From NCBI RefSeq assembly GCF_029633865.1, contig NC_079213.1, forward strand, positions 112,665,464-112,729,463: a stretch of DNA of 64,000 bases, given 5' to 3'. Both the position numbers and the translations under genes were made by a program. Positions within the stretch are counted from its first letter, which is position 1. Each line of letters begins with the position of its first letter. The notes under the pieces were generated by a model. The model searched no databases and was not told the DNA's origin. It worked only from the letters and a program-made list of their open reading frames with translations. This stretch comes from Lampris incognitus. Lineage: Eukaryota; Chordata; Actinopteri; Lampriformes; Lampridae. Below are positions 1-13,537 of this stretch, one piece after another.

Positions 1-3000
1 TGCAGCAGCATACAGCCCCTGTTGGACCTCTGGTCGGCTCCCCAGGTGGTACCTCGGTGCTGCAGCAGCATACAGTCTCTGTTGGACCTCTGGTCGGCTC
101 CCCAGGCGGTGGCTCGGTGCTACAGCAGCATACAGCCCCTGTTGGATCTCTGGTCGGCTCCCCAGGTGGTACCTCGGTGCTGCAGCAGCATACAGTCCTT
201 GTTAGACCTCTGGTCGGCTCCCCAGGTGGTACCTCGGTGCTGCAGCAGCATACAGTCCTTGTTAGACCTCTGGTCGGTTCCCCAGGCGGTACCTCGGTGC
301 TGCAGCAGCATACAGTCCCTGTTGGACCTCTGGTCGGCTCCCCAGGCGGTGGCTCGGTGCTGCAGCAGCATACAGCCCCTGTTGGACCTCTGGTCGGTTC
401 CCCAGGCGGTGGCTCAGTGCTGCAGCAGCATACAGTCCCTGTTGGACCTCTGGTCGGCTCCCCAGGTGGTGGCTCGGTGCTGCAGCAGCATACAGTCCCT
501 GTTGGACCTCTGGTCGGCTCCCCAGGCGGTGGCTCAGTGCTGCAGCAGTATACAGTCCCTGTTAGACCTCTGGTCGGCTCCCCAGGCGGTGGCTCGGTGC
601 AGCAGCATACAGCCCTTGTTAGACCTCTGGTCGGCTCCCCAGGTGGTGGCTCGGTGCAGCAGCAGCATACAGTCCCTGTTGGACCTCTGGTCGGTTCCCC
701 AGGTGGTACCTCGGTGCTGCAGCAGCATACAGTCCCTGTTGGACCTCTGGTCGGCTCCCCAGGTGGTACCTCGGTGCTGCAGCAGCATACAGTCCCTGTT
801 GGACCTCTGGTCGGCTCCCCAGGTGGTACCTCGGTGCTGCAGCAGCATACAGTCCCTGTTGGACCTCTGGTCGGCTCCCCAGGCGGTGGCTCGGTGCTGC
901 AGCAGTATACAGTCCCTGTTGGACCTCTGGTCGGCTCCCCAGGCGGTGGCTCGGTGCAGCAGCAGTATACAGTCCCTGTTGGACCTCTGGTCGGCTCCCC
1001 AGGCGGTGGCTTGGTGCAGCAGCAGTATACAGTCCCTGTTGGACCTCTGGTCGGCTCCCCAGGCGGTGGCTTGGTGCAGCAGCATACAGCCCTTGTTAGA
1101 CCTCTGGTCGGTTCCCCAGGCGGTGGCTCGGTGCAGCAGCAGCATACAGTCCCTGTTGGACCTCTGGTCGGCTCCCCAGGTGGTACCTCGGTGCAGCAGC
1201 AGCATACAGTCCCTGTTGGACCTGTGGTCGGTTCCCCAGGCGGTGGCTCGGTGCAGCAGCATACAGTCTCTGTTAGACCTCTGGTCGGCTCCCCAGGCTG
1301 TGGCTCGGTGCTGCAGCAGCATACAGTCCCTGTTGGACCTCTGGTCGGCTCCCCAGGTGGTGGCTCGGTGCAGCAGCATACAGTCCTTGTTAGACCTCTG
1401 GTCGGTTCCCCAGGTGGTGGCTCGGTGCAGCAGCATACAGTCCTTGTTAGACCTCTGGTCGGTTCCCCAGGTGGTGGCTCGGTGCAGCAGCAGCATACAG
1501 TCTCTGTTGGACCTCTGGTCAGCTCCCCAGGTGGTACCTCGGTGCTGCAGCAGCATACAGTCCCTGTTGGACCTCTGGTCGGCTCCCCAGGCGGTACCTC
1601 GGTGCTGCAGCAGCATACAGCCCCTGTTGGACCTCTGGTCGGTTCCCCAGGCGGTGGCTCGGTGCTGCAGCAGTATACAGTCCCTGTTGGACCTCTGGTC
1701 GGTTCCCCAGGCGGTGGCTCGGTGCAGCAGCATACAGCCCTTGTTAGACCTCTGGTCGGCTCCCCAGGTGGTACCTCGGTGCTGCAGCAGCATACAGTCC
1801 CTGTTGGACCTCTGGTCGGCTCCCCAGGCGGTGGCTCGGTGCTGCAGCAGCATACAGCCCCTGTTGGACCTCTGGTCGGCTCCCCAGGCGGTGGCTTGGT
1901 GCAGCAGCAGTATACAGTCCCTGTTGGACCTCTGGTCGGCTCCCCAGGCGGTGGCTTGGTGCAGCAGCATACAGCCCTTGTTAGACCTCTGATCGGTTCC
2001 CCAGGCGGTGGCTCGGTGCAGCAGCAGCATACAGTCCCTGTTGGACCTCTGGTCGGTTCCCCAGGCGGTGGCTCGGTGCAGCAGCATACAGTCTCTGTTA
2101 GACCTCTGGTCGGCTCCCCAGGTGGTACCTCAGTGCTACAGCAGCATACAGTCCCTGTTGGACCTCTGGTCGGCTCCCCAGGCGGTGGCTCGGTGCAGCA
2201 GCAGCATACAGTCCCTGTTGGACCTCTGGTCGGCTCCCCAGGTGGTACCTCAGTGCTACAGCAGCATACAGTCCCTGTTGGACCTCTGGTCGGCTCCCCA
2301 GGTGGTACCTCGGTGCAGCAGCAGCATACAGTCCCTGTTGGACCTCTGGTCGGCTCCCCAGGCGGTGGCTCGGTGCAGCAGCATACAGCCCCTGTTGGAC
2401 CTCTGGTCGGCTCCCCAGGCGGTGGCTTGGTGCAGCAGCAGTATACAGTCCCTGTTGGACCTCTGGTCGGCTCCCCAGGCGGTGGCTTGGTGCAGCAGCA
2501 TACAGCCCTTGTTAGACCTCTGGTCGGCTCCCCAGGCGGTGGCTTGGTGCAGCAGCATACAGCCCTTGTTAGACCTCTGATCGGTTCCCCAGGCGGTGGC
2601 TCGGTGCAGCAGCAGCATACAGTCCCTGTTGGACCTCTGGTCGGTTCCCCAGGCGGTGGCTCGGTGCAGCAGCATACAGTCTCTGTTAGACCTCTGGTCG
2701 GCTCCCCAGGTGGTACCTCAGTGCTACAGCAGCATACAGTCCCTGTTGGACCTCTGGTCGGCTCCCCAGGCGGTGGCTCGGTGCAGCAGCAGCATACAGT
2801 CCCTGTTGGACCTCTGGTCGGCTCCCCAGGTGGTACCTCAGTGCTACAGGAGCATACAGTCCCTGTTGGACCTCTGGTCGGCTCCCCAGGTGGTACCTCG
2901 GTGCAGCAGCAGCATACAGTCCCTGTTGGACCTCTGGTCGGCTCCCCAGGCGGTGGCTCGGTGCAGCAGCATACAGCCCCTGTTGGACCTCTGGTCGGCT

Positions 3001-3404
3001 CCACAGGCTGTGGCTCGGTGCAGCAGCATACAGCCCCTGTTGGACCTCTGGTCGGCTCCACAGGCGGTGGCTCGGTGCAGCAGCATACAGTCCCTGTTGG
3101 ACCTCTGGTCGGCTCCCCAGGCGGTGGCTCGGTGCAGCAGCATACAGCCCCTGTTGGACCTCTGGTCGGCTCCCCAGGCGGTGGCTCGGTGCAGCAGCAG
3201 CATACAGTCCCTGTTGGACCTCTGGTCGGCTCCCCAGGTGGTACCTCGGTGCTGCAGCAGCATACAGTCCCTGTTGGACCTCTGGTCGGCTCCCCAGGTG
3301 GTACCTCGGTGCTGCAGCAGCATACAGTCCCTGTTGGACCTCTGGTCGGCTCCCCAGGTGGTACCTCGGTGCTGCAGCAGTACACAGTCCCTGTTGGACC
3401 TCTG
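1..3404. repeat. 57/60-bp minisatellite array, open at left edge
   Basis: About 57 head-to-tail copies of a GC-rich unit reading roughly ctgttggacctctggtcggc, then a gtacc or gtggc variant, then a CAG-rich stretch ending in catacagtcc. Units are 60 or 57 bp because the CAG-rich segment varies by one triplet. The array starts outside the window and stops abruptly near 3404 where unique sequence begins. Since both unit lengths are multiples of three, long stop-free frames exist on both strands, including one frame open for over 3.3 kb. Those frames lack normal protein composition and a recognisable domain, so I read this as a tandem repeat, not a gene. Variant patterns such as ggtacctcg versus ggtggctcg recur in blocks, as expected from unequal exchange. 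Confidence 0.95.
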
Positions 3405-3843
3405 TAGACAGCCAGGCCGTGCTGGGCGTCATTTCATCATAACACCAAGGCAAAACGTGTGATGGTAAACAATGGGAACTTCACACTGTTCACCCAACAG
3501 GAAGACATGGGTGATGAGAATGTCTCTTGGCAGGGTTGGTGAGACGGCTTCTGTCTGTCTGCTGTCTGACTTACTGTCTGCTGGGGGAGAAACACCGCCA
3601 TGAAACCTGGTCCTAACATGTGTTGTCACCATTTAAGACGTTTTAAATGTCGAGTTCGGAATGACTGCCAGTCAGTGAGCAGGCATGATGGCATTCCGGG
3701 TTCCCATGCATCCTGGAAAACCTGGAAATTTATAGACTAGTTTTCCAGTCTTGGACGATGCCTGGAAAATGATGAAATTAATCAGCTGTCCTGGAAGTAT
3801 CAGTGTAGTCATGGGTAATTGGAGAGTTATGTTATAAAATCGT
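3405..3843. other. unique spacer, nothing recognised
   Basis: Non-repetitive sequence between the minisatellite and the first SINE. It includes short direct echoes of 'cctggaaa' between about 3712 and 3795. No convincing exon or known repeat was seen. The last ten bases are the left target-site duplication of the following SINE. Confidence 0.5.
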
Positions 3844-7329: not shown

Positions 7330-7992
7330 ATCTACATCCTCAACCCCGAGTTGCTGCCTAAAGTGAAGGAGTTCAAGTATCTCGCGGTCTTGTTCGCGAC
7401 TGAGGGTAGGGTGGAGCAGGAGATTGACAGGCGGATTGGTGCAGCATCAGCAGTATTGGGGGGATGTTGTAGCGGACCGTTGTGGTGAAGAGGGAGCTGA
7501 ACCGGAAGGTAAAGCTCTCCGTTTACCAGTCAGTCTTGGTCCCAACCCTCACCTATGGTCATGAGCTTTGGGTAGTGACTGAAAGGGTGAGATGGTGGAT
7601 ACAAGCGGCTGAAATGAGTTTCCTCCGTAGGGTGTCTGGGCTCAGCCTTAGAGATAGGGTGAGGAGCTGGGACATCCGGAGGGAGCTCGGAGTAGAGCCT
7701 CTGCTCCTTCCCATCGAAAGGAGCCAGCTGAGGTGGTTCGGGCATCTGATCAGGAGGCCTCCTAGGCGCCTTCCTTTGGAGGTTTTCTGGGCACGTCCAA
7801 CTGGGAGGAGACCCCGGGGTAGACCCAGAACTCGCTGGAGGGACTACATGTCCAATCTGGCCTGGGAACGCCTTGGGATCCCCCAAGGAGGAGCTGGGGG
7901 GGGGGGGGCGTTGCTGGGGAGAGGGAGGTCTGGAGGGCCCTACTTAGCTTAGCAAGCGGCTGATGATGAGATGAGAAGAGATGAGAAGAGAA
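7330..7992 (+). pseudogene. LINE reverse-transcriptase C-terminal relic, Rex3/RTE-like, plus copy
   Basis: Same family as the minus-strand relic near 5.1-5.7 kb. The conceptual product shows EGRVEQEIDRRIGAASAV, then in a second frame LTYGHELWVVTERV, MSFLRRVSGLSLRDRVRSW, SQLRWFGHLIRRPPRRLP and RPRGRPRTRWRDYMSNLAW. A frameshift near 7480 separates the parts, and a poly-G run near 7900 breaks the end. A GATGA/GATGAGAAGA tail closes it near 7992. Only the last third of the polymerase is present, as expected of a 5'-truncated LINE insertion. Confidence 0.85.
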
Positions 7993-10207
7993 AACCAAAT
8001 GAGGAGGAATGTTATAAAGTGCTCTTTATAAAAGTAATTGTAATTCCATTAAACCACAGAACAAGGTGATGGCGTGAGCAATGCGTGGACAGTTTTGTAA
8101 AGTGCAGGGCGTGGCAGCTATGCGTATGAGCATGTGGACAACGGCATAGTTCTGCACGGTAGTGCGCCCCGACAATGTCCCCAACGTTGTAAAGCATTGT
8201 CCTGTCTTCTTCCAGTGGGATTTTGAAGAGGCCAACACAATTTGGTGCAAACCAGCAGCAAAGCCAGGAAAAGGAGACGAGTTTCCGTTGCAAGAGTGGC
8301 CGAGAAACCCCGAACCCTTCGTCCCCTGCCCCGGCGGAAGGCCTGGCCTCCCAGAGAAGACGGCGAACGGCACACGGCCGAGTGGGCCCGGCTCTGTGCG
8401 CTGACGACGAGGGACATGTCTCGCTCTCGAGCTGGGTTGTGGGTCCTCTGCGCTCGGTACATGCAGTTGGGAGTGTAATAAGGTAATAAAAACTATAAAA
8501 AGATAAGCAGTCATCCGTCTTTTTCTACTGCACTATGTCATGCTGTCATCCGCTCATGTGAGGATTCATTTTCCCGTCACCTCACCTGACCCGTGTTATC
8601 GAAATGTCCACGTATCCGACGTTGACCCTTGCCGGGGCTTTTGTTTTCGTGACGGATTGAATGAGCGGGCCGTGGGTGTGCGATACAGCCTTGTCTCCAT
8701 CTTGTGATCCTCTTTGTCGGAGCATGGCGGTGAGTAGGGGTTCTGTCAGCGGTGCTCAGATGTCAGGGCAGACAGCTTTCCTGTAGTGACCACGAGCTGC
8801 CAATTCAACGGATGACACCGAAACCCCGTATCAGCCTGTTGACTAGAATCGAGCCCTCGATACATCAAATTCCAATAGCGATGTGAAACAAAGAACTGCC
8901 CCCCCCTAATAAAACAGTATCTCTCCCCAACTGCTTTGCCGGGTCATGGGGTCACGTGGGACATTTTGCTGGTCAGCGGGGTTGGGTTGGAAAAAGGCCC
9001 AACGCAGCAGATAAGGACTAGACTAGACGACCAGGGCTTGTCCGTCCCCTCCATCATCCTTTCAGCCGTCTGTCCTTCTGCCCGCGGTCTGTTTTTAAAG
9101 CTGTGTTGCCGGAGTCACAGACCGGCACATTTTTAACTGATGGGCGCTGAGGGAACTTCCCCGAGCTCTCTGCTCTTATCTGGCTATTGTACGATTATCA
9201 AAGTCTCCTCCCTGTTACATTTCCGAAGTCGGAGGGAGGAGACATGATCTGTCTGAGACAAATGACCGGGAATGCGAATAATGAGGGATAACAAAGTAAT
9301 GAAGTGCAAGGGGATTTATTGTCGAAAGACTCCTTTAGCACGTTGACGTGACTTGGTTGGGTAAATATTTTGGAAATCTAGGATTCAGTCATTGCCTCAC
9401 ACTTGGTCATGCATCTGATCAATGTTTTCGCGTGCCTATTTCAGTTTGCGTGGCACCAGCCGAGCTCGTGGGATTGGATGGTCCTCGAGGAAACGAGTTG
9501 ACACCACCGCTTGGGCAATTTTGGTCTAGTAGCGGAGAACAGCCGATGCTGACATCGTGCTATGTGTTGGACAGACCTGAAGTCTGAGACGTACAACTCT
9601 GCGAGGAAAACCATTCGTGACCTGAGCCAATATAGGTTTAGCTCGTGATGCAAGGAAAGGAAAGGATCATCAAACAGATCTTTAGATCAGTGTTACGTTT
9701 CTTTTTTCTGTGTACTGTTGATTATACACACCACACATTGTTATGCAACCATCTTGGAAACTGACCTTATTTCCCCCCCCCCACTTTTATTTCTTAATCC
9801 AGACAAGAAAAACGAGTACAGTCTTTGTAGTCTTCTGGTTGTGAGGAATGCTGCGTTTGCGTTGTGCTGCCTGTGGGTCGTGGGGGGGGGGGGGGGGGGC
9901 AGGCGCTGTGGTCTTATCCCTGTCCCTTCTGAGACTGGCTTTTCCCATTTAAATTGCTGGAATTCTGTTTGCACAAGTCACAGAGAGTAAGGATTAGGAC
10001 ATGTGAAGCAGCAGCAGCAGCCAGTAGGCCTTGTTGTTCTTGGCCCGTGCGTCACCGAGATCGCTCCACTGCAGAGGACTGTAGAAGATGCTGGATCCGC
10101 AAAGCCCTCTTGATGCGCCTGCACGGGATTTTGCTCACCTTGCAACTTGGGTATAGAGGAGGGGGGCAAGGGGGGGGGAGTGGGACATGGCAGTTTGCTT
10201 CCAATGC
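7993..10207. other. no gene recognised
   Basis: About 2.2 kb of mixed sequence without a domain I can name. Short open frames on both strands around 8.0-8.5 kb overlap one another and show no family resemblance. Poly-C and poly-G runs occur near 9772 and 9885. Confidence 0.5.
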
Positions 10208-10216
10208 GCGTCACCC

Positions 10217-10275
10217 TGTTTACACTTGGTTTTAAAATGCGTTTTGGGGGATCGGATCACAAGTGGCCAGCGAGA
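10217..10275 (+). repeat. half copy of a small inverted-terminal element
   Basis: The stretch starting gtttacacttggtttt and ending ggatcggatcacaagtgg matches, in reverse orientation, the element near 11.48-11.57 kb. A similar gtttacacctgg...gatcggatcacaagtgg sequence is, from memory, common in fish genomes as a MITE-like repeat. Confidence 0.6.
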
Positions 10276-10715
10276 CGCGTCGCCGTCTCCAAACGCGTCC
10301 TGCTGACAAGAGTAGCCGGCTGCAGGCAGTATCTTCTACTTCTTCTTTCCGTTTTGTGGCGGATCGCAGTCTTAAAAACAACACGAAGAAGACCAAGGTC
10401 CGGTTTACTGTCAACCGAGGAGGTCACGTGATGGTCCCGTCAACCGCGGAGGTGCCTCTTGCGGAGGTCCGCCATCTTGTCCGCAGCCAGATGCGGCGCC
10501 CCGCTGACCACGTGATCAGATTTCGTTACTGCCACGTCACTTCCGCTACAAGGTCAAAGCGCCTCAGTCAAGCGCCAGATTTGCCGACTCGCTGTGAAAA
10601 CGACAGCTGATGTTTGAAGACGTTTCCAGCACCAATATACATGTACGGGCTGTTCCAGCTGCTGGGTCTCATTGACCTCCACCACCATGCATGTACATAA
10701 AATATACTGTAACGT

Positions 10716-10846
10716 GCATGGATAAGTAGACACGCTGGCCGCTGGCTGGCGGGTCTGACCCTTTAGTCGAGCGGTTAGCGATGTCTCCTGCGGTGCGGGC
10801 GATACGGGTTCGCATCCCGGCCGCGGCAGTTCCTGTGGTTGCGTTG
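10716..10846 (+). repeat. tRNA-like unit related to the downstream LTR-like repeats
   Basis: It carries gggtctgaccctttagtcga followed by gcggttag (A-box-like) and gggttcgcatcccgg (B-box-like). The 5' half resembles the two 135-bp repeats just downstream, while the 3' half differs. It may be a diverged solo repeat of the same element or the tRNA-derived sequence from which that repeat was built. It is not called a tRNA gene because no cloverleaf with matched acceptor arms was seen. Confidence 0.5.
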
Positions 10847-10881
10847 TCCCCCGAATTCGCTACAATACGTTAAAAACACAG

Positions 10882-11016
10882 TGTAAACTACTAATAAGAC
10901 ACGTTAGCCCCCAGCTAACGGGTCTGACCCTTTAGCCGAGCGGTTAGTGACGTCGCCTTGTGGTGCAATACACCCCGTATCGAATCCCGCACCAGGCAAG
11001 AAAATAACCGCTTACA
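10882..11016 (+). repeat. 5' LTR-like repeat of the TRIM-like element
   Basis: 135 bp, with terminal dinucleotides TG and CA and a TGTAA/TTACA inverted terminus. Pol III-like A and B boxes lie about 45 bp apart inside it. Confidence 0.7.
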
Positions 11017-11035
11017 TTGGTGGCAGCGGTGGGAT
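11017..11035 (+). promoter_or_regulatory. primer-binding-site-like sequence, tRNA-Leu type
   Basis: TGGTGGCAGCGGTGGGAT follows the first LTR-like repeat by one base. Its complement ends in ...GCTGCCACCA, the 3' end expected for a vertebrate tRNA-Leu. The tRNA match is from memory and should be confirmed against a tRNA set. Confidence 0.6.
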
Positions 11036-11119
11036 CCGGAAGTGTGCAGATCCTCAGAAGTCTCTTCGGAGCGCGGGAATAACAAAGCGCGAGGGCGCGC
11101 TTCCGGGGAGGGTGACGAC

Positions 11120-11255
11120 TGTAAACTACTAATAAGACATGTTAGCCACCCAGCTAACGGGTCTGACTCTTTAGCCGAGCGGTTAGTGACGTCGCCTTGT
11201 GGCGCAGTACACCTCGTATCGAATCCCGCACCGGGCAAGAAAATAACCGCTTACA
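11120..11255 (+). repeat. 3' LTR-like repeat of the TRIM-like element
   Basis: 136 bp, differing from the first repeat by a few substitutions and one inserted base. The same TG...CA ends and tRNA-like boxes are present. Confidence 0.7.
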
Positions 11256-11278
11256 TTAGTATCTGATTTATAAATGGG

Positions 11279-11423
11279 GTGGCAAGACCGTGTCCCAGAG
11301 GTGGCAGCTGCCACCCCCATTGCCACCCTGTAGATCCGCCCCTGGGTGGCAAAGATGTGGCAAGACTGTGTCCCAAAGGTGGCAGCTGCCACCCCCTTGC
11401 CACCCCGTAGATCCGCCCCTGGG
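11279..11423. repeat. tandem duplication, about 70 bp unit, two copies
   Basis: Two adjacent copies of a segment running from gtggcaaga..gtgtccca through ggtggcagctgccaccccc to gtagatccgcccctggg. The inner ggtggcagctgccacc is itself palindromic. Similar 'tagatccgccc ctg' sequence recurs in fish repeats. Confidence 0.8.
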
Positions 11424-11482
11424 TCACACGCGTCCCAGACCTGGTTTGAGTTCCCGGTCCACAGAACGTTCTGGCGGTGGTT

Positions 11483-11566
11483 TACGCTTGTATTTAGCGC
11501 CGTCCACTTGTGATCCGATCGCAAAAAAAAAAAAAAGCGCATTTCAAAACCAAGTGTAAACGGGGC
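11483..11566 (-). mobile_element. small MITE-like element with gtttac termini
   Basis: Ends resemble inverted repeats (gtttacgcttg and caagtgtaaac). Inside lie ccacttgtgatccgatc and a poly-A run. It matches the partial copy near 10.22 kb in the opposite orientation. Confidence 0.55.
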
Positions 11567-11569
11567 GTG

Positions 11570-12340
11570 TGAGAGCGGCGCCGCACCGAGAGCCGTATCA
11601 CCGCGCTGGAGGGGGAGGGGGAGGGGGAGGGGGGGTGAGCGGCAGGGGTAGCGTGCGGCCGTGGCTAATGTGTCGCGTAGGGCTCCTCGCCGCAAGTCCG
11701 CCATAGATGCGATCCTTTATCGGCGCGACCGCTGGGCTGCGGAGCAGGACCGTCCTACGCATTCGTGGACCGACGATTAAGAGACGGCACCGCGTGTGTG
11801 TGTGTGTGGTCCGTGACCCAGTTCGAACAACGCCCTGTGCCGTCATTGCACCGTGTTCTGGCTCGTCAGCGGCGCGCCACGCCGGGAGAAGGCCAAGTCG
11901 CCCCGAATACGAGCGGGCGGCGCGTCACCGTCACCCGAACCGGACTACGCGCGCGGCTTCCACCTTGCGGAGGCGGTCCTCCTCTGACGTCACATCCGCC
12001 CACTTCCTGCCGTCGGTGAGCCAGTTCGGGGCAGATCGCCGCTCGTAACGCGCTGTCAACACACGGCCACCTTCCCTGCCGCCTCCCCCCCTCCCCCCCC
12101 GTCGCCACACGTTTAACGTCAAGTCTGCGCCGATTCGCCTCGTGAAACCTCGTTTGGCTTTGGGGCAGCGGCCGATTCCGTCTCGCCATGGCCCGCAGGT
12201 GATCCTCAACGCGTCCAGGTGGCTCTGGGTAAGTGTCCTTATTTCGGATTTGGACGTTTCGTCCGCATCGCCCGTACATGTGTCAGGGCTAGCTAGCGGG
12301 CTAAAGCTAACGCGACCTGGCTCGAGCCAGGCGCCGTCTG
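11570..12340 (+). promoter_or_regulatory. CpG-rich region, candidate promoter and first exon
   Basis: CpG dinucleotides are far denser here than in the flanks, with runs such as ggcgcgccac and gcggcgcgtcaccg. Near the right side, ggctctgg|gtaagt (cut after 12228) is a strong splice-donor consensus. In vertebrates this combination is typical of a CpG-island promoter with a non-coding first exon. The next recognised gene on this strand is the ATP13A3-like gene whose start-codon exon lies about 28 kb downstream, so this could be its distal promoter. Nothing in the sequence proves that link. Confidence 0.45.
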
Positions 12341-12471
12341 TCACTCAGCCCTACGCGCGGCTACATTGTATCGTGCGCGTTATATAGCATATATGATGTA
12401 TCGTATACGTTATGAAGCACGCGTTTTAGTGCGCATGTCAAGGGCAGGATTAATCGGCTGTGTTTGTGAAG

Positions 12472-12557
12472 CGTGATCTCCAACTCTGCTCTGGAAACTA
12501 AAACATGAGCCAGGTCTGAAACGTGATTTCCAACTCTGCCCTGGAAACTAAAATATG
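12472..12557. repeat. imperfect tandem duplication, about 49 bp
   Basis: cgtgatctccaactctgc is followed by tggaaactaaaacatg, then the pair recurs as cgtgatttccaactctgc and tggaaactaaaatatg. No function seen. Confidence 0.8.
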
Positions 12558-13068
12558 TTGGGTGACCCCCCCCCGGGTGACCCCCCCACACCCCGAATTC
12601 TTTCACTTTCTAATTTGCTTTTTCTAACCACTGTGGTATGCTACCAGTGGACTCCAAAACCTCCCTTAAATCCCCCCTTCAGCCGTCATGGAGGGCTGCT
12701 AAGTGACAGCCAACGACACGCACTCGCCGCCTGTCATTCGTTACATTGTATCTAAAACTGAAACAGTTTGGTGCGAGAGTGTAGCGACAGCCATAGTACT
12801 AGTCAACTATATTAGTTTCGTGCGTTACCACAGTGTATTAGAATTAGTGGGCCATTATGTTAATAGGACAGTATTAGCCGTTTAGTATGGTGCAGAATAA
12901 CAGTATAATTCGGGGGTGTATTTGTATAATTAGCATGTTTTGTTTATCTAATTTTCTTGTCTTGTATCTTGTTAGTTTTTAGTTGTTAAGAGCGTGAGTG
13001 TCTGCAATAGAACTCAATAAAGCGTAAAGATAAATAAAGTGTACGTCTCCCTTGGGAAAAATACATGT
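12558..13068. other. no gene recognised
   Basis: AT-rich sequence with poly-C patches at its start and an aataaa near 13015. No exon or repeat family recognised. Confidence 0.4.
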
Positions 13069-13076
13069 ATACTATT

Positions 13077-13537
13077 GGTAACACTTGAGCATGGGGAACG
13101 TAGTCACCATTAATTAGGTGCTTGTTAGCATGCAAATTAGCAACATATTGGCTCTTAATTGGTCATTATTACGTACTCATGAATGCCTTATTCTGCATGG
13201 CCTTATTATACAACCAGTAAGCCATTAACTATGAGTTTTCCCTCTATAACCTCAGAAGTATTGCTTATTAGTAGTACCATCTCAATATGCTTTGCTTAGT
13301 ATGGCCTTTATAAGGTGGTAGTACCACAAGAAGAGTTATTCTCCCTTACTGACACTTAATGAATATGGTCTGTTCTTACATAACAACACACAAAACTACA
13401 AGTGTTCATAGTGTGAAATTACTCTAAATTAAGTTTTTGTTACTTAGAATATGTTCCCCATACTAAAGTGACATCTTGATCATTACTAATTCACTAGTAA
13501 TTAAGTTTTTTTATGTCCCCCATACTAAAGTGTTACC
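13077..13537. mobile_element. hAT-type MITE with 8-bp target-site duplication
   Basis: A 461-bp AT-rich non-coding element. The left end ggtaacacttgagcatgggg and the right end, read on the other strand, ggtaacactttagtatgggg form terminal inverted repeats. It is flanked by perfect 8-bp duplications atactatt at 13069-13076 and 13538-13545. An 8-bp duplication is characteristic of the hAT superfamily. A second internal copy of the terminal motif (ccccatactaaagtg) lies near 13455. It has no transposase and would need an autonomous partner. Confidence 0.85.

Follow-up and report, generated by a model that had tools for sequence, protein, structure and literature searches.

A Probable Helenus-Type TRIM with Decayed tRNA-Derived Sequence in Its LTRs in Lampris incognitus

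Overview

The 64,000-nucleotide stretch of Lampris incognitus DNA analysed here (hereafter, the window) carries on its forward strand a 374-bp element, well below the 1000-bp limit used for TRIMs, which we interpret with good confidence as a Helenus-type TRIM, i.e., a non-autonomous LTR retrotransposon with decayed tRNA-derived sequence in its LTRs. TRIMs with tRNA-derived LTRs were defined and named Helenus by Kojima 2024 (PMC10886601), and the element is most likely a further example of this published kind, the match being one of description. For a second unit just upstream, a solo LTR left by a sister family is the best reading.

Architecture of the Element

The features on which the TRIM reading depends are as follows:

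10882-11255, + strand: whole TRIM, 374 bp
10882-11016, + strand: 5' LTR, 135 bp, TGTAAAC...CTTACA
11017-11119, + strand: interior, 103 bp
11018-11035, + strand: PBS TGGTGGCAGCGGTGGGAT, 18 bases, one base past the 5' LTR end
11105-11112, + strand: candidate PPT, purine tract GGGGAGGG, read from the sequence
11120-11255, + strand: 3' LTR, 136 bp, TGTAAAC...CTTACA

The initial annotation had described a pair of TG...CA repeats of 135/136 bp, separated by about 103 bp, with an 18-base tRNA-Leu-type primer-binding site one base after the first repeat, and each of these elements was recovered at the expected size and place. The two LTRs are direct repeats with TG...CA ends and are identical in 129 of the 136 columns of an end-to-end alignment, the differences consisting of six transitions and one 1-base indel. 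The PBS follows the 5' LTR as expected of a TRIM and is, over 18 of 18 bases, the reverse complement of the 3' end of tRNA-Leu-AAG, as given by the human fragment tRF-Leu-AAG-001 (ATCCCACCGCTGCCACCA) in Table 1 of PMC9233364; in the same table, the Leu-TAG fragment differs from the Leu-AAG fragment by one base. The runner-up site for this 18-mer elsewhere in the 64-kb window matches at 13 of 18 positions. At 103 bp, the interior is too short to encode mobilisation proteins.

Two aspects of the architecture are less regular. A purine-rich stretch had been announced ahead of the second repeat; it is present, but stops seven bases (TGACGAC) short of the 3' LTR and, since it does not touch the LTR, it is a candidate for an imperfect PPT. 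The flanks of the element, ACAG on the left and TTAG on the right, match at two of four positions, so that no target-site duplication (TSD) is seen at the TRIM. This lowers the case for Helenus membership without closing it, because age or recombination can erase a TSD; with six substitutions between its LTRs and its TSD gone, the copy looks old.

The Upstream Unit as a Probable Solo LTR

The unit upstream of the TRIM is delimited by the following features, the TSD copies coming from flank comparison:

10704-10707, + strand: TSD ATAC, left copy
10708-10864, + strand: probable solo LTR, 157 bp, from a related family, TGTAAC...GCTACA
10865-10868, + strand: TSD ATAC, right copy

A related tRNA-like unit had already been noticed at about 10716-10846; the unit does exist, but 10708-10864 is the better delimitation, giving it TG...CA ends and ATAC on either side. 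These flanks agree at four of four bases, and a 4-bp TSD, a trait of animal Helenus, is thus found at this unit. One has to keep in mind that its ends were picked by eye, before the flanks were compared by script; the chance of a 4-bp flank match is 1 in 256 if the ends are taken as fixed. The unit is 81% identical to the 5' LTR of the TRIM over 67 to 70 nt, differs from it in its 3' part, and is oriented like the TRIM, from which it is separated by 17 bp. We consider it probable that 10708-10864 is a solo LTR with a 4-bp TSD from a related but distinct family.

The proximity of the two units leads to another reading, compatible with a Helenus-type TRIM, in which the TRIM, instead of having inserted once as a simple element, would belong to a tandem array of Helenus or to two elements that recombined. 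The TRIM without a TSD, the related unit only 17 bp away, and the tandem arrays on record for the zebrafish family LTR-11_DR (PMC10886601) all speak for it; we nevertheless hold it to be unlikely. The upstream unit has matching flanks of its own, its 3' part is a different one, and along the 67 to 70 nt that can be aligned the divergence is about 19%; for these three reasons it gives the impression of another family having inserted independently.

The same neighbourhood could also have arisen by tandem duplication of a SINE-like unit derived from a tRNA; each of the three tRNA-like units (the two LTRs and the upstream unit) would then be a SINE copy or a monomer, and only by an accident of spacing would they resemble a TRIM. 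These units do stand in the same orientation within 550 bp, and the missing TSD at the TRIM would fit. Against this, an exact 18-base tRNA-Leu PBS lies one base past the first unit of the TRIM, all three units have TG...CA ends, the upstream unit has matching 4-bp flanks, none of the units carries the A-rich tail of SINE2 elements (they end in ...TTACA or ...CTACA), and Tandem Repeats Finder, run on 9000-13000, returned a single row at 11608-11633, away from the TRIM. Plain tandem duplication and SINE readings were set aside on the PBS, the flanks of the solo LTR and the lack of an A-rich tail, and we regard a SINE-like tandem as very unlikely.

tRNA-Like Boxes in the LTRs

Consensus scoring placed the following boxes, those of the TRIM being A-box-like and B-box-like:

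10764, + strand: A box TAGTCGAGCGG, upstream unit
10807, + strand: B box GGTTCGCATCC, upstream unit
10933-10943, + strand: A-box-like TAGCCGAGCGG, 5' LTR
10977-10987, + strand: B-box-like GTATCGAATCC, 5' LTR
11172-11182, + strand: A-box-like TAGCCGAGCGG, 3' LTR
11216-11226, + strand: B-box-like GTATCGAATCC, 3' LTR

An A-box-like motif followed by a B-box-like motif, in tRNA order, had been claimed for both repeats and is indeed found there, the two motifs being 44 bp apart from start to start in each TRIM LTR and 43 bp apart in the upstream unit; a spacing of 43-44 bp is that of tRNA genes. The B box consensus is GGTTCGANNCC, and the TRIM B box agrees with it at 7 of 9 informative bases, the A box agreeing with its own consensus at 7 of 8. 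The forward box score is 14 for each TRIM LTR and 15 for the upstream unit, and, when each sequence was dinucleotide-shuffled 1000 times, scores as high came up in 7 shuffles for the 5' LTR, 13 for the 3' LTR and 5 for the upstream unit. On the reverse strand, used as a control, the LTRs score 11 and 10 and the upstream unit 14, equal to the forward score of the LTRs; across the window, 35 of 1908 tiles (both strands, tiles over these units included) reach the LTR score. With these tiles and that reverse strand scoring as high as the LTRs, the box pair is by itself weak evidence.

What the two families have in common is more telling. A 24-base core including the A box is conserved in both LTRs and in the upstream unit, and a scan allowing up to 3 mismatches found three occurrences in the 64-kb window, all within 550 bp, and none in 100 shuffles; as the pattern was written from these same three units, the scan shows only that the window holds no other look-alike. 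An exact scan of prokaryote and virus contig collections gave no match to the core, which says little given the nature of those collections. The stretch conserved between the families extends upstream of the A box (GGGTCTGACYC), so conservation is not confined to the boxes. An A-box core kept in two diverged families weighs more as evidence than the box score. So do the B boxes, which read GTATC in both TRIM LTRs and GGTTC in the upstream unit: the bases that deviate from GGTTCGAATCC are not the same in the two families, which would fit an ancestor bearing a regular B box.

A run of a tRNA predictor, proposed earlier as a check, called no tRNA: ARAGORN with the bacterial code reported no tRNA gene over the whole window, and Rfam scans of 9500-12500 and 10700-11260 gave no tRNA match. 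The Rfam matches under the gathering score (four in 9500-12500 and two in 10700-11260) were dismissed as chance. RNA folding of the three tRNA-like stretches was no better than that of shuffles (z of 0.04, 0.62 and 0.91), and folding of the TRIM interior was not significant (z of -0.96). The LTR boxes look like promoter remnants rather than tRNA genes.

Part of these results would suit an ordinary Pol II TRIM whose tRNA-like motifs are due to chance or decay and have no promoter role: the box pair is reached by 0.5-1.3% of shuffles and its score recurs in the tiles and on the reverse strand mentioned above, neither folding nor covariance models support a tRNA, and the B box is off consensus. 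This possibility is weakened by the A-box core, which falls within the best-conserved stretch between two diverged families, by a box spacing of 43-44 in all three units, and by the published animal Helenus families, which share the same plan (PMC10886601); we judge it quite unlikely and retain the Helenus-type reading.

Search for a tRNA Parent

In looking for a tRNA parent, we compared six human tRNAs with four regions on both strands, i.e., 48 comparisons. Four rows had scores reached by at most 6 of 300 shuffles; no parent is named, because none of the four spans a whole tRNA. The following stretch stood out in one comparison:

11059-11077, + strand: 19 nt resembling tRNA-Leu-AAG (variable arm and T stem), sense, AGTCTCTTCGGA-GCGCGGG

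Its likeness to tRNA-Leu-AAG was equalled in 5 of 10,000 shuffles, a figure that belongs to one of the 48 comparisons. When 3044 tiles of the window were scored against tRNA-Leu, the PBS (37) and 11059-11077 (28) came out on top, the next score being 25. This sense stretch sits beside an antisense PBS for the same tRNA, and its likeness to tRNA-Leu may be due to chance.

Surrounding Repeats and the Rest of the Window

Both the TRIM and the solo LTR are enclosed by a pair of inverted repeats:

10214-11565, no strand assigned: inverted-repeat pair, arms 10214-10272 and 11498-11565, CCC(T)GTTTACACTTGG...

With up to 3 mismatches allowed, the 24-base motif common to the two arms has no further occurrence in the window. 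The 8-bp flanks of the pair, GCGCGTCA and GCGTGTGA, agree at six of eight positions, the best of 56 end pairs tried; as chance gives about 0.2 such pairs among 56, this agreement is no proof of a TSD. Our guess is that the retroelements are nested in an old DNA transposon, some 1.35 kb long, which the arms would mark. The 5' junction of the TRIM at 10870-10888 (TTAAAAACACAG, followed by TGTAAAC) is 84% complementary over 19 nt to the arm at 10218-10236, a likeness that may be chance or may hint at the route by which the TSD was lost. Soon after the TRIM, 11279-11424 holds two copies of GTGGCAAGAC...GGTGGCAGCTGCCACCCCC...GATCCGCCCCTGGGT, 77-78 bp apart, perhaps duplicated end pieces of a transposon.

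Farther away, a long run of short repeating units at 534-3462, with reading frames open on both strands, looks like a minisatellite. At 7473-7952, a 159-aa ORF resembles by eye part of a LINE ORF2 and has no Pfam match; a Pfam search with six ORFs of the window returned no family. BLAST matches of 12 bases at 13264-13275 (E of 0.76) were dismissed as chance.

Proposed Mechanism

Should the boxes be functional, TFIIIC would bind them in the LTRs and Pol III would transcribe the element. Judged by where the A box stands in tRNA genes, Pol III would be expected to start near 10925 in the 5' LTR; U3 would then measure roughly 44 bp, and the remainder would be R-U5. There is no TTTT run on the + strand from 10601 to 11700, so that a Pol III transcript could run on beyond the PBS as far as the 3' LTR. 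A tRNA-Leu would then prime reverse transcription at the PBS, strand transfer would proceed via the repeated R-U5, and reverse transcriptase and integrase would come in trans from an autonomous LTR element. This partner is presumed to be Gypsy, to which PBS matches published for animal Helenus point (PMC10886601); the suggestion owes nothing to the window. Integration would generate 4-bp duplications, and recombination between LTRs would leave solo LTRs such as 10708-10864.

In yeast, integration of Ty1 and Ty3 is guided by the Pol III machinery. By analogy, one may wonder whether the Pol III machinery also guides the integration of Helenus, TFIIIC or TFIIIB on the resident LTR having drawn the integrase; the placement of the TRIM 17 bp from a solo LTR of the sister family, in the same orientation, is what brings this idea forward, and we think it very unlikely to be correct. 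If it were true, the elements would seed their own clusters, which would explain the tandem arrays of LTR-11_DR in zebrafish.

Comparison with Known Elements

The idea of a TRIM with tRNA-like Pol III boxes in its LTRs holds for the anatomy, to which the neighbouring solo LTR with its 4-bp TSD can now be added, and fails for novelty. A fish element with tRNA-like boxes, as a counterpart of the plant element Cassandra, had been put forward as a notable parallel; Helenus, fish families included, was published in 2024, and the finding is therefore modest as a discovery. According to Kojima 2024 (PMC10886601), the Helenus families comprise zebrafish LTR-11_DR with its relatives in Cypriniformes, in Hemibagrus (redtail catfish) and in Chanos (milkfish), the hosts also including sturgeon, paddlefish and coelacanth. 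Animal Helenus have 4-bp TSDs, with tRNA-Leu among the vertebrate primers; their box A is TRGCY ... YGG and their box B has a conserved GGTTC, and most families carry promoter remnants, not tRNA genes (PMC10886601). The element described here shares with them its size, its LTRs, a tRNA-Leu PBS and a box A within tRNA-derived sequence in both LTRs; it departs from them by its B box (GTATC vs. GGTTC) and by the lack of a TSD at the TRIM. The comparison of our element with LTR-11_DR and its kin is one of description. Searching the literature for Helenus TRIMs since 2023, for LTR-11_DR and for Helenus retrotransposons yielded, in the collection searched, no further paper on these elements; the work of Kojima is cited in a 2026 meeting report (PMC12859917).

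Other elements are built along similar lines. Cassandra, with 5S rRNA in its LTRs, likewise carries the promoter of a small-RNA gene inside the LTRs of a TRIM; it differs by a 5S-type promoter and its occurrence in plants, the promoter here being of the tRNA type (PMC10886601). Pol III transcription is reported for Cassandra and would be expected for our element; Kojima 2024 (PMC10886601) gives Cassandra as the sole validated Pol III-promoter TRIM and leaves Pol III transcription of Helenus unproven. Ajax, a TRIM of nemerteans whose LTRs contain partial 5S rRNA, also combines a small-RNA promoter with a tRNA-Leu primer, and differs in being 5S-derived, in its 5-bp TSD and in its nemertean hosts (PMC10886601). 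The tRNA-derived SINEs (SINE2) have A and B boxes derived from tRNA, as seen here; unlike them, the elements of this locus have LTRs and a PBS, lack an A-rich tail and show, in the case of the upstream unit, a TSD of 4 bp.

TRIMs with Pol III promoters blur the boundary between SINEs and LTR elements, and the occurrence of two sister families side by side in Lampris incognitus makes it possible to compare the bases that are conserved, such as the A-box core, with those that drift.
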